From positions 1 to 24,165 of the IMG/VR virus record IMGVR_UViG_3300030108_002424: DNA of 24,165 nucleotides; one strand, given 5' to 3'. The DNA is from a virus. The notes beneath the pieces were generated by a model. The model made no database searches. It was not told where the DNA came from and saw only the letters and a program-made list of their open reading frames with translations. Below, one piece after another: positions 2,509-19,682 of this stretch (position 1 is its first letter; each line of letters begins with the position of its first letter). The position numbers and the translations under genes are program-made.

Positions 2509-2846
2509 ATATTTATTTAGCTGGACTCTTTGATGGCGAAGGGTGCGTGACTTATAAAAATGTTATGAGACACAGGAAAGGTAAACCTAGAGCTTACCCT
2601 ACCTGGAACATAAGATTAGAAATAGCTATGACTTGCGAAAGAACTATACAATTTGCTTTAGATAACTTTGGTTGTGGAACTATAAATTTTAGACCAAAAT
2701 ATCCACATCAAACTATGGATCAATATCGTTGGCGTTGTTCTCACAGAGATGCTTTACAGTGTGCTAAAAGAATGTTACCATACAGCGTAACTAAAAAAGA
2801 TAAATTAGAAAGTATAGTTAAACATTATGAAATTAAAGATTCTTGA
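2469..2846 (+). CDS. LAGLIDADG homing endonuclease-like protein, 125 aa
   Basis: YLAGLFDGEGCV (16-27) is a LAGLIDADG motif, with E24 in the position of the catalytic acidic residue. The rest fits the short single-motif type, which acts as a homodimer: a beta-rich middle (WNIRLEIAMTC), FGCGTI, and a basic C-terminus. It is free-standing, not inside an intron or intein that I can see. The start overlaps the coiled-coil gene by 40 bp and the end overlaps the cytosine methyltransferase start by 20 bp. It could spread itself or its neighbours into related phages. The family call is firm; activity is unproven. Confidence 0.8.
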   Translation: MGRESKSLNCKEVDIYLAGLFDGEGCVTYKNVMRHRKGKPRAYPTWNIRLEIAMTCERTIQFALDNFGCGTINFRPKYPHQTMDQYRWRCSHRDALQCAKRMLPYSVTKKDKLESIVKHYEIKDS

Positions 2847-4242
2847 TTTATTTTCTGGGCTAGGTGGTTTCTCACTTGGTTTAGAACGTACAGGAAACTT
2901 TGAAACTATAGCTTTTTGTGATAACGATAAATACAGCAATTTAGTGCTGCAAAAACATTGGAAAGGAGTTAAGATATATAACGATGTCAAAGAAATCACA
3001 AAAGAAAGACTCGAGGCAGATGGAATTCAATCTCCCGATATCATCACAGGAGGTTTCCCGTGCCAACCGTTCTCGGTCGCAGGCAAACAAAAAGGAACGA
3101 GTGACGACAGACATCTCTGGCCTGAGATGTTTCGAATCATCAAAGAGTTTACCCCGAGGTGGGTTATTGGAGAAAATGTCAAAGGTCTTGTTAACCTCCA
3201 AGACGGCATGGTCTTCGAGACTGTGTGCACTGACTTGGAAGGAGAAGGATACGAAGTCAGGGCGTTCAATATTCCAGCTGCAGGTGTCGGTGCTCCCCAC
3301 AGGAGAGAAAGAATCTGGATTGTTGCCCACAGAAAAGAATCTATGGTCAACGCCGACGACGTTCGACTCGAACAACATAACGAAACCAAGGAAGAAACAT
3401 CCTGGTGGAGGACAAGTACCACCTTTAAACCAACAAGTGATGTGGTTAACACCATCAGCAACGGTGAGAGGCGAGAGATCTCCCGAAGCGATGAAGAAGA
3501 GAGAAGAATACAGGAAGAGCATAGGCAGGACGACAGTTCCGCCAGGCTCACTAGCAGAACAAGTTCAATACGGCAAACCAACAACGGACATGAAGATATG
3601 GAGGACTCCCGACGCACATTGCAACAGGGGACCGAGCTCCGAGAAAAGAATGAAGATGAAGTTAGAGAAGGGTATGCCAATCAGTATCAACGATCAGGTA
3701 GCACATCCGAATCTAATGTGGCCAACGCCAAGGGCGAAGGAACCAGGGAGAACGACGAAAGGTTACGGTCGAGGACTAGCGGAGTTAGTGGAAGGCAAGA
3801 AACAAGTGGAACCGAAGAAGATGTGGCCAACACCTACGCAAGACTCAGCGACGGAACGTACGAAGAAGTACAGTCAAGGGGGCAAACCTCTGACACTAGC
3901 AGTAAAGGAAGCACAGATGTGGCCAACACCGAGAGCAACGATCGGCATGACCATGAAGCTGTCACAAGGGATGGCGGATCTTCGGCACAAGAAGTATTTG
4001 GAAACGGAAGTAGCTTATCAGGAGAAAGCTCCTGGTGGCACACTGAACCCGACGTGGGTCGAGTGGCTCATGGGATACCCGGCAGAGTATACAGACTTAA
4101 AGGATTGGGAAATTCTATCGTCCCGAAAATTGCGGAAGAAATCGGTAAAGCCATAATGGAAGCCGAAGCTGATGATATTGAGTACCAAGGTGGTGGAGCT
4201 TACAAAGCTATGTTAAAACTATTTAATGAGAATTTAAAATGA
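2827..4242 (+). CDS. DNA (cytosine-5) methyltransferase, C5-MTase family
   Basis: The 471-residue protein has the C5-MTase motifs in order: I DLFSGLGGFSLGL (7-19, S-adenosylmethionine binding), IV GGFPCQPFSVAG (75-86, catalytic C79), VI GENVKG (115-120), VIII RRERIWIVA (159-167) and X GLGNSIVPKIA (426-436). Between about 170 and 410 lies a hydrophilic region rich in Glu, Arg, Ser and Thr with repeated DVANT/NVANA segments. This stands where a target-recognition domain should be and may not fold as one. The DNA here is visibly richer in GC than its surroundings and carries a second long reading frame. It probably protects phage DNA from host restriction. It overlaps the Dam-like gene by 4 bp. 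Confidence 0.9.
   Translation: MKLKILDLFSGLGGFSLGLERTGNFETIAFCDNDKYSNLVLQKHWKGVKIYNDVKEITKERLEADGIQSPDIITGGFPCQPFSVAGKQKGTSDDRHLWPEMFRIIKEFTPRWVIGENVKGLVNLQDGMVFETVCTDLEGEGYEVRAFNIPAAGVGAPHRRERIWIVAHRKESMVNADDVRLEQHNETKEETSWWRTSTTFKPTSDVVNTISNGERREISRSDEEERRIQEEHRQDDSSARLTSRTSSIRQTNNGHEDMEDSRRTLQQGTELREKNEDEVREGYANQYQRSGSTSESNVANAKGEGTRENDERLRSRTSGVSGRQETSGTEEDVANTYARLSDGTYEEVQSRGQTSDTSSKGSTDVANTESNDRHDHEAVTRDGGSSAQEVFGNGSSLSGESSWWHTEPDVGRVAHGIPGRVYRLKGLGNSIVPKIAEEIGKAIMEAEADDIEYQGGGAYKAMLKLFNENLK
2984..4156 (+). CDS. Overlapping +2-frame ORF within the cytosine methyltransferase, 390 aa
   Basis: A 390-codon ORF lies entirely inside the methyltransferase gene, in another frame of the same strand. 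It shows ordered, non-random features: ISSQEVSRANRS near the start, LCALTWKEKDTKSGR, six WPTP-type motifs (LWSTP, MWLTP, IWRTP, then MWPTP three times) and NPTWVEWLMGYP close to the end. I recall these signatures from phage proteins and from the C-terminal part of other C5-methyltransferases, but cannot verify that here. AAAGGAG (2962-2968) lies 15 bp before the ATG, longer than ideal. It may be a true overlapping gene or the remnant of a frame-shifted methyltransferase tail. Function is unknown. Confidence 0.55.
   Translation: MSKKSQKKDSRQMEFNLPISSQEVSRANRSRSQANKKERVTTDISGLRCFESSKSLPRGGLLEKMSKVLLTSKTAWSSRLCALTWKEKDTKSGRSIFQLQVSVLPTGEKESGLLPTEKNLWSTPTTFDSNNITKPRKKHPGGGQVPPLNQQVMWLTPSATVRGERSPEAMKKREEYRKSIGRTTVPPGSLAEQVQYGKPTTDMKIWRTPDAHCNRGPSSEKRMKMKLEKGMPISINDQVAHPNLMWPTPRAKEPGRTTKGYGRGLAELVEGKKQVEPKKMWPTPTQDSATERTKKYSQGGKPLTLAVKEAQMWPTPRATIGMTMKLSQGMADLRHKKYLETEVAYQEKAPGGTLNPTWVEWLMGYPAEYTDLKDWEILSSRKLRKKSVKP
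3341..3930 (+). repeat. Six in-phase ATGTGGCCAACACC-like repeats inside the methyltransferase
   Basis: Related 14-mers occur at 3341, 3440, about 3597, 3716, 3821 and 3917; three are ATGTGGCCAAC(A/G)CC. The distances between them (99, 156, 120, 105 and 96, taking 3596 as the third start) are all multiples of three. The repeats therefore keep phase and are read as VNA/VANT in the methyltransferase and as W(S/L/R/P)TP in the overlapping frame. Confidence 0.7.
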
Positions 4243-4745
4243 AAGGACATTTAAACTTAATAGCTTCGCATAATACTTATGGGAAGAGAACTAATTTACT
4301 GATGAAATACATTAGGACTCCTGATGAAATATGGGAGATGTTATCACAGGAATTTAATTTTACCGTAGATGCGTGTGCTTCTGACAAAAGTCATTTAGTT
4401 GATAAGTATTGGACAAAAGAAAACTCAGCTTTAACTAAAAATTGGGATGGAGAGATTGTTTATTGTCATCCAATGTACGATACTAAGATTCCTAGATTTG
4501 TTAAGAAAGCTATGGAAAGTAAATGTTTAACAGTATTTTTATTACCTGCATCTACTAATAGCTTATACTTTCACCGATATTTTTGGGATAATGTTAATCA
4601 TAAACCTAGAGATAATGTTCAAGTAAGGTTTTTAAGAAAAGCAAAAGATGAACAACACGGTTTTAAAATGGCAACCGACGATGGTGAGTTACCTGAGAGA
4701 GGATACTTAAGACCTCTAATGATTGTGGTGGTGGATAATAGATGA
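4239..4745 (+). CDS. Phage Dam-like adenine N6-methyltransferase with altered catalytic motif
   Basis: The 168-residue protein follows the phage Dam family plan: RTPDEIWEMLSQEFNFTVDA (26-45) for the N-terminal substrate/cofactor region, then YWTKENSALTKNW (57-69). The catalytic NPPY/DPPY position reads HPMY (77-80), so a key asparagine or aspartate and a proline are missing. It may be inactive, or it may be a specificity or regulatory paralogue of the second Dam-like gene at 4866. The start overlaps the cytosine methyltransferase stop. An internal ATG at 4302 immediately before the conserved part is a possible alternative start. Confidence 0.75.
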   Translation: MKGHLNLIASHNTYGKRTNLLMKYIRTPDEIWEMLSQEFNFTVDACASDKSHLVDKYWTKENSALTKNWDGEIVYCHPMYDTKIPRFVKKAMESKCLTVFLLPASTNSLYFHRYFWDNVNHKPRDNVQVRFLRKAKDEQHGFKMATDDGELPERGYLRPLMIVVVDNR

Positions 4746-4865: not shown

Positions 4866-5315
4866 ATGGTTACAAAATTAAAACCGAAAGACAATAAGTT
4901 TCATAAAGGAAACAGTGAAGATAAAAAACATTATTGGTTAACACCACCTGAACTTTATAAAGTTTTAAATGATGAGTTTAAATTTGACTTTGATCCTTGT
5001 CCTTATCCAAAGCCCGAAGATTTTGATGGACTTGAAATAGATTGGGGTCAATCTAGTTATGTGAACCCACCTTTCGGATCTATTATACATAAAGGAAAGA
5101 AAAAAGGAGTTACGGCCTGGGTTCGTAAAGCTCTTGCAGAAAATGAAAAAGGTAAAAAAGTTGTATTAGTTTTTCCTATTGATAAATGGATTTTAATGTT
5201 ATTAAAAGCAGGCGCTGAGGTTAGAAACTTAGGCGATGTTAAATGGTTAGCAACCGAAGATAAAAAACCAGGCAAAGGGACAGGCAGACATATTGCTTGT
5301 TTTATATTGAAATGA
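4866..5315 (+). CDS. Phage Dam-like adenine N6-methyltransferase, intact motif
   Basis: The 149-residue protein contains YWLTPPELYKVLNDEFKFDF (23-42), DPCPYP (43-48) and the catalytic motif NPPF (67-70) within SSYVNPPFGS. VVLVFPIDKW follows, as in the phage Dam family of adenine methyltransferases. It would methylate adenine, probably to evade restriction, with the recognition site unknown. It is the likely active member of the tandem pair with the gene at 4239. The stop overlaps the exonuclease start by 4 bp, so modification and recombination genes are translated together. Confidence 0.8.
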   Translation: MVTKLKPKDNKFHKGNSEDKKHYWLTPPELYKVLNDEFKFDFDPCPYPKPEDFDGLEIDWGQSSYVNPPFGSIIHKGKKKGVTAWVRKALAENEKGKKVVLVFPIDKWILMLLKAGAEVRNLGDVKWLATEDKKPGKGTGRHIACFILK

Positions 5316-19058: not shown

Positions 19059-19207
19059 ATAAAATAATATATCCAATTTTACGTTTTATAATGAAATACT
19101 CAGGCGCATTAAATTCATGGGCTTGGCGTAAACATGTAAAGATACTTGAAAAAAATCGTATCAACGAGGATGAAGAATATTTAAAAGAATTAAAGAAAAA
19201 ATTATGA
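19052..19207 (+). CDS. Small hypothetical protein, 51 aa
   Basis: An ORF fits exactly in the gap: its ATG overlaps the preceding stop by 7 bp and its TGA overlaps the next ATG. The peptide begins MLDKIIYPILRFIMKYSGAL, an amphipathic or weakly membrane-associated segment, and ends in a charged helix (EDEEYLKELKKKL). No family is recognised. Overlap at both ends argues for real translation. Confidence 0.55.
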   Translation: MLDKIIYPILRFIMKYSGALNSWAWRKHVKILEKNRINEDEEYLKELKKKL

Positions 19208-19485
19208 TAAAAGACCCTAAAGTTGGAACAGGTAAAAAACCAAAAGGTTCTGGTAGGAGATTATATACGGATGAAAATCCTAAAGACACTGTTGGAATTA
19301 AGTTTGCGACCCCTGCGGATGCTCGTAGGACTGTGGCAAAAGTTAAACGAATCAGCAAACCATACGCAAGAAAAATCCAAATACTTACAGTCGGTGAACA
19401 AAGAGCCAAAGTTATGGGTAAGGCGAAGGTGGCAAGCATATTTAAGAAAGGTAAGGAAGCAATTAGAAAAGGGAGAAAAGCATGA
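19204..19485 (+). CDS. Small basic protein with RLYTDENPKDTV motif, 93 aa
   Basis: Contains KPKGSGRRLYTDENPKDTVG and IKFATPADARRTVAKVKR, then KIQILTVGEQRAKVMGKAKV, a pattern I recall as a domain of unknown function (possibly DUF5824) in phages and giant viruses. With the proteins at 18475 and 18750 it forms a trio of small basic families of this kind. It starts with an ATGA overlap and shares its last bases with the next start. Confidence 0.7.
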   Translation: MIKDPKVGTGKKPKGSGRRLYTDENPKDTVGIKFATPADARRTVAKVKRISKPYARKIQILTVGEQRAKVMGKAKVASIFKKGKEAIRKGRKA

Positions 19486-19682
19486 GTAGAGTGGGAATGA
19501 TAAATGCAATGCGAGCTAGATATGAAGCAGATATTGCAGAGGCAGATGCCACGATAAATATCTATTTGAATAATCCTGTGGGTATTGGGGAACATCCACA
19601 ACATTTAGAAGAAATAGATAAATTAATGGCTAAAATAGCCGAAGCTAAAGATAAACTAGAATCATTAAAGGAGTTTGAATAA
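19482..19682 (+). CDS. Small helical protein, 66 aa
   Basis: A 4-bp overlap couples it to the previous gene. Sequence: helix (MRARYEADIAEADATINIYL), a conserved-looking turn NNPVGIGEHPQH and a second helix (LEEIDKLMAKIAEAKDKLES), i.e. a helical hairpin. I recall a similar NPVGIGEHPQH motif in other phages. Suggests an oligomeric accessory of the head module; no function is established. Confidence 0.65.
   Translation: MSRVGMINAMRARYEADIAEADATINIYLNNPVGIGEHPQHLEEIDKLMAKIAEAKDKLESLKEFE

Follow-up and report, generated by a model that had tools for sequence, protein, structure and literature searches.

A phage-type C5-cytosine methyltransferase locus that probably encodes one enzyme as two polypeptides in overlapping reading frames

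The window, that is, the whole stretch of viral DNA analysed (24,165 nucleotides, positions 1 to 24,165 of IMG/VR record IMGVR_UViG_3300030108_002424), carries a C5-cytosine methyltransferase gene, here called alpha, and wholly nested within it on the same strand a second ORF, beta, which lies +1 relative to alpha (Table 1). Alpha matched PF00145 (1.3e-52), TIGR00675 (6.9e-46) and phrog_363 (1.7e-81), and motifs I, IV (PCQ), VI (ENV), VIII and X of the C5-cytosine methyltransferases were all found in frame 0. The motif IX and target-recognition domain that such an enzyme should hold in the same chain were absent from alpha, the IX-like motif and a series of modules being encoded in the +1 frame. 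A sequence-only reading of this DNA had pointed out a 390-codon frame inside a methyltransferase frame intact from motif I to motif X; both ORFs were confirmed and, by the stop statistics given below, lie far beyond chance. The ordered motifs which it had listed for the second frame, ISSQEVSRANRS, six W-x-T-P motifs and NPTWVEWLMGYP, were all located. The conserved N-terminal part of beta reads LLEKMSKVLLTSKTAW...LTWKEKDTKSGRSIFQLQ.

The G+C content at the locus was 0.50, against 0.33–0.34 in the kilobases on either side. Directly downstream of alpha, two genes of Dam-family methyltransferases were identified (4239-4745 and 4866-5315; PF05869, 3.1e-14 and 1.2e-07), so that three DNA methyltransferase genes follow one another. 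Upstream, an ORF at 2469-2846, LAGLIDADG-like and matching phrog_5046 'HNH endonuclease', overlaps the first 20 nt of the methyltransferase gene and is possibly a homing endonuclease adjoining the methylase. In another part of the window, an ORF at 19161-19604 on the minus strand and ORFs at 19204-19485 and 19223-19489 on the plus strand overlap one another.

Table 1. Positions of the two overlapping genes and of their motifs in the window
Feature	Position	Strand	Frame	Remarks
alpha, C5-cytosine methyltransferase, 471 aa	2827..4242	+	0	motifs I-VIII and X with a low-complexity linker between
motif I, DLFSGLGG	2845..2868	+	0	
AAAGGAG, Shine-Dalgarno-like	2962..2968	+		15 nt ahead of the +1 ATG at 2984
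beta, 390 aa, ATG start	2984..4156	+	+1	six W-x-T-P modules and motif IX
motif IV, GGFPCQPFS	3049..3075	+	0	with catalytic Cys
doubly constrained segment	3163..3330	+	0 and +1	frame-0 motifs VI-VIII and conserved N-terminal part of beta
motif VI, ENV	3172..3180	+	0	
motif VIII, APHRRERIW	3292..3318	+	0	
six-module array	3344..4042	+	+1	frame 0 merely kept open here
modules 1-3, WSTP, WLTP, WRTP	3344, 3443, 3599	+	+1	
modules 4-6, WPTP	3719, 3824, 3920	+	+1	
motif-IX-like, LNPTWVEWLMGYP	4043..4081	+	+1	+1 constraint in 180 aligned tails
motif X, LGNSIVP	4105..4125	+	0	constraint back on frame 0

Between motifs VIII and X alpha showed no constraint as a protein and was predicted to be disordered. 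In its AF2 model, residues 1-170 mostly had pLDDT values of 80-98, residues 232-418 fell below 50, and a helix containing motif X was placed at 420-452. A Foldseek search with this model gave M.HaeIII and M.HhaI as best matches over an alignment of about 170 columns. Frame 0 therefore resembles a catalytic domain without a recognition domain. Beta matched phrog_1008 (3.4e-22, the best stretch being residues 16-173), whose label 'DNA methyltransferase' is silent on the nested frame, the modules and the missing catalytic domain, and no relative of beta was detected in Pfam, NCBIfam or PDB. The AF2 model of a two-module beta was poor (pLDDT 53). The general form of motif IX is L-T-P-R-E-x-A-R-L-Q-G-F-P, with which we take LNPxWVEWLMGYPxxY of beta to agree. 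Read in frame 0, the W-x-T-P of the +1 frame corresponds to V-A-N/D-T/A/S, and NPxWVEWLMGxP to EPxVGRVAxGxPxR.

The nested two-frame arrangement is common to hundreds of phages and bacteria. A tblastn search with the +1 protein against named phages returned 24 records, and in 14/14 records with fetched regions the match was +1 to a methyltransferase frame; the same position was found for all relatives from a scan of viral contigs (80 kept of 577). In an unbiased set, selected solely by the methyltransferase N-terminus (2827-3318), the +1 frame was open over 176-533 aa in every one of the 73 distinct loci (a contig end cut some of these ORFs), while the +2 ORFs of these loci measured just 9-68 aa. 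Bacterial genomes from many phyla showed the nested form in about 70 of 75 distinct loci, and a search of plasmids gave three distant matches only. Annotation of these loci was inconsistent, public records often giving one frame only; the record of L005 (KT997847.1) has a truncated frame-0 methyltransferase together with a second-frame ORF labelled 'putative cytosine-specific methyltransferase'. One chromosome record of an uncultured Roseovarius MAG (OX638333.1) was matched at five sites (L205-L209) with the same length and score each time, as if from a multicopy prophage.

Stop codons were then compared with expectations from synonymous resampling. In 106 relatives, 7 stops were observed in the +1 frame against about 1,585 expected; they divide into 1 against 787 between frame-0 codon 60 and motif VIII, and 6 against 798 in the module region. 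Conversely, when the +1 codons were resampled, 685 frame-0 stops were expected in the shared segment and none was present. Although the relatives share kinship, the deficit far exceeds what non-independence could explain, and these near-zero counts in both frames indicate therefore that selection holds both of them open. A sliding-window test on 116 distinct N-terminal regions, which superseded a first set of 39 sequences, located the onset: +1 stops were frequent up to position 2996, after which a single one occurred in all sequences as far as 3354, and the +2 frame was closed by stops throughout. Chance or codon bias as the source of the +1 ORF was ruled out by the synonymous resampling and by the closed +2 frame.

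Codon-position patterns suggest how selection is divided along the gene. Upstream of the +1 start the third positions of frame 0 were the most variable, as in an ordinary gene, and from about 3160-3187 onward frame-0 synonymous variation or entropy was 0.18–0.73 of background. Counted as minimal changes, the module region varied 255/154/674 times at positions 1/2/3 of the +1 codons (671 sites each), and conservation was 0.85–0.96 for the +1 protein versus 0.63–0.88 for the frame-0 protein, with +1 higher in every cluster of at least 4. In 180 aligned tails the constraint rested on the +1 frame through LNPxWVEWLMGYP and on frame 0 from motif X, the frame-0 third-position entropy being 0.24–0.68 ahead of motif X and 1.60 at it. 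The nearest relative of the window, L015, repeated this pattern pairwise: upstream of the +1 start, frame-0 positions 1/2/3 differed 2/1/11 times, from motif X onward 3/5/13 times, and in the modules the differences were 7/1/29 at +1 positions, equivalent to 29/7/1 in frame 0. The module region is therefore conserved as a +1 protein and not as a frame-0 protein. These alignments point to frame 0 being selected from motif I to motif VIII and once more from motif X, and the +1 frame alone in between; in the comparison of substitution patterns which the sequence-only reading had proposed, selection in the shared part thus fell mainly on the second frame. Frame-0 conservation as the origin of the +1 ORF was likewise ruled out by the codon-position counts.

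In many loci the final +1 stop lies 1-2 codons ahead of the first +1 ATG. A 6-nt Shine-Dalgarno match was found at 60 of 114 first +1 ATGs, with spacings of 7, 9 or 12 nt, compared with 91 of 735 other ATGs of the same region having a match of at least 6 nt. In the window the spacing of 15 nt is long, relatives with a 6-nt match having 7-12 nt. These features support an initiation of beta separate from that of alpha, which in the window would take place at 2984. In some loci (L278, L300 and L313) the +1 ORF starts level with the frame-0 gene, its first residues being MSW or MSY (MNELALFAGAGGG in L313), and therefore the frames overlap there across the entire alpha.

The same modules were also found outside the overlap, where homologues had been sought as a check on the second frame. 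In L043, L210 and L313, frame 0 stops just past motif VIII and the +1 ORF consists of modules, motif IX and motif X; motif X likewise lies in the +1 ORF of L317 and L326. Two annotated genes are present in Arthrobacter phages Orcanus (gp40/41) and DrYang (gp77/78) and in Streptomyces phage Samy (gp49/50), alpha having motifs I-VIII and beta the modules with IX and X, and a later scan counted 16 further loci with this separate-gene layout. Single-ORF fusions of motifs I-VIII, PTP modules, IX and X were identified in L343, L344, L360, L388, L393 and L403. In the five fusions that were scanned, phrog_1008 matched the C-terminal half (to 3.5e-51), and phrog_116 or phrog_363 matched along the chain; the same C-terminal part was matched, weakly, by a profile built from nested beta proteins. 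The W-T-P and EWLMG.P signatures thus turn up in further phage proteins, as the sequence-only reading had stated, and some C5-methyltransferases contain them in the methyltransferase frame itself. Because the first module or modules of the fusions remain in +1, these genes appear to descend from an ancestor with the overlap, and the fused loci could in part be frameshifts. Finally, in L066 (4060-4752; also in L067) the +1 ORF extends about 690 nt beyond the frame-0 stop with extra W-x-T-P modules and no overlapping methyltransferase frame; phrog_1008 matched this part by itself (7.6e-10), and it also matched the beta of the de-overlapped loci. Two bacterial loci, L213 and L233, have an indel that fuses frame 0 to the +1 tail and leaves motif X stranded in another frame; these are inactive copies or sequencing errors.

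The 283 modules of 75 proteins were grouped into 51 types at 45% identity. Each protein had 1-7 modules, in 56 distinct ordered arrangements, and the modules have been shuffled: their order is F-E-A-I-C-G in the window, E-a-A-C-G in L016 and A-C in L091. No protein had the same type twice, whereas 22.7 would be expected under random dealing at 45% identity with array ancestry ignored; at 35% identity repeats do occur, in 19 proteins against 39 expected. Modules with separate specificities would be expected to show such avoidance of repeats, though it is not proof of them. A longer module type, NLPxxxEFxxYLxSxTSIKELxxxTxxxKTxIEHWFRKDN...PSIEDW, was present in L172 (3980-4402), L148, L149, L159 and L164, and also within L027, L043 and L081. 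By its sequence it looks like a helix-turn-helix DNA-binding segment, and in several loci the +1 ORF runs about 400 nt beyond the frame-0 stop.

Because the modules elsewhere stand in line with the methyltransferase, as a second gene or fused to it, the +1 ORF would most likely supply target recognition and motif IX, as one subunit of a two-polypeptide C5-methyltransferase. Judged from these comparisons, the whole locus would be one C5-cytosine methyltransferase made as two polypeptides from overlapping frames, to which we give a probability of roughly 0.86. Alpha would supply the S-adenosylmethionine-binding and catalytic motifs I-VIII and end with motif X, the linker of about 240 codons between them being held open, not conserved as protein and predicted to be disordered. 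Beta, from its own start, would contribute the conserved N-terminal segment, the interchangeable W-x-T-P modules and motif IX, all three jointly replacing the target-recognition domain. Both chains would assemble in trans into the active enzyme. Each module probably reads its own DNA target, and a multispecific enzyme of this kind may protect phage DNA against several restriction enzymes. Of the earlier proposal that one segment encodes two protein families, the two proteins stand, but their being unrelated families does not, beta being likely half of the same enzyme.

Other explanations of the +1 ORF were weighed. A programmed +1 frameshift past motif VIII could produce a single chain of motifs I-VIII, modules and IX, with the unshifted product as by-product. 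The strong +1 constraint beginning only at about 3160-3187, the complete one-chain enzyme to be expected in L313, L210 and L043 from a shift close to where alpha ends, and the existence of fused genes agree with it. However, at a nested locus this would leave the shifted product lacking motif X and the unshifted product lacking motif IX, and frame 0 is open across the module region (0 of 685 expected stops), which is needless for a by-product. The shift, which the sequence-only reading had offered as an alternative, is moreover unneeded, since the +1 ORF opens immediately ahead of an ATG often preceded by a Shine-Dalgarno sequence, and we consider it improbable. Somewhat less probable still is a +1 protein that is independent of the methyltransferase and overprinted on it, sharing nothing but the DNA; it could be, for instance, a phage regulator or anti-restriction protein. 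Its lack of a Pfam or PDB relative would suit this, and such an overlap would be ordinary overprinting, but modules and motif IX lie in line between VIII and X in the fused methyltransferases, some beta genes carry motif X, and a methyltransferase accompanies beta at almost every examined locus.

A relic of a frameshifted former methyltransferase tail, also suggested from the sequence, or an artefact of frame-0 conservation or codon bias, is hardly credible. The two bacterial loci L213 and L233 do resemble indel fusions. Nevertheless, the module region is the less conserved as frame-0 protein, +1 codon positions 1 and 2 are conserved, and stop avoidance is extreme in both frames; the strong purifying selection on the +1 frame contradicts a relic. 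Separately, a hidden homing endonuclease like that of the ShiLan element was ruled out, beta having no HNH or other Pfam match.

Two-polypeptide C5-methyltransferases have precedents. The small subunit of M.EcoHK31I is reportedly, in work by Lee et al. of 1995, read from an alternate frame inside the gene of the large subunit. The window is alike in this feature, with 2984-4156 lying +1 within 2827-4242. The large subunit of M.EcoHK31I (YGGCCR) contains motifs I-VIII and X and the small one motif IX (PMC3404938), the same division as in the window, and therefore this kind of enzyme is already known. Its predicted target-recognition domain was assigned to the large subunit (PMC3404938), whereas here recognition is assigned to beta. 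Also unlike M.EcoHK31I, beta of the window type has a shuffled array of 1-7 modules and the constraint across the variable region lies on beta. M.AquI alpha/beta is a C5-methyltransferase naturally split in the variable region, and M.SssI fragments complement if cut between motif VIII and the target-recognition domain (PMC3404938). The M.AquI split resembles the arrangement of L313, Orcanus, Samy and DrYang, but its beta carries motif X, while in the window beta is fully nested and X belongs to frame 0.

In multispecific phage C5-methyltransferases of the SPbeta/phi3T/rho11s type, interchangeable recognition modules stand in tandem between motifs VIII and IX. The window and its relatives have a tandem module array, with 1-7 modules per protein in the set counted, and the likeness would hold if these modules recognise DNA. 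The multispecific enzymes are, however, single chains in one frame, while the modules of the window begin with W-x-T-P and lie in a second frame, one-frame forms being found only at other loci. On the multispecific phage enzymes, Trautner 1996 is cited in PMC12707154. The ShiLan element is an out-of-frame HNH endonuclease in a phage methylase gene (PMC11855218), similar to the present case in that a hidden ORF occupies another frame of a phage methylase and the host frame is kept open. It is, however, a mobile insertion encoding a homing endonuclease, whereas the hidden frame described here would be a part of the enzyme and occurs in nearly all relatives. No description of such a nested module array, of its breadth or of the division of constraint came up in the open-access literature that was searched. 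As the two-polypeptide division is already known from M.EcoHK31I, what is new is the breadth of the arrangement, the modular array carried by the second frame and the way in which constraint passes from one frame to the other.

The overlap is long (hundreds of codons on the same strand), has clean evidence of selection in both frames and extends over many phages and bacterial phyla, and yet most records seen annotate the locus as one methyltransferase or as a hypothetical protein. The nested frame explains the apparently disordered variable region of these methyltransferases. The natural nested, split and fused versions are a ready set for testing how recognition by C5-methyltransferases is built. 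We lean slightly towards a wider proposal, namely that these loci form a widespread class of C5-methyltransferases whose specificity resides in a nested, out-of-frame exchangeable subunit, one W-x-T-P module corresponding to one target, with arrays shuffled between phages as different specificities are selected for, and with one DNA segment that has to remain open as an inert linker for the catalytic frame and at the same time evolves as recognition modules in the other frame. Phages would swap methylation specificities through cassettes of about 30-50 codons if the modules are separate recognition units, and such cassette exchange, if true, would be useful for the prediction of restriction resistance and for methylase engineering.
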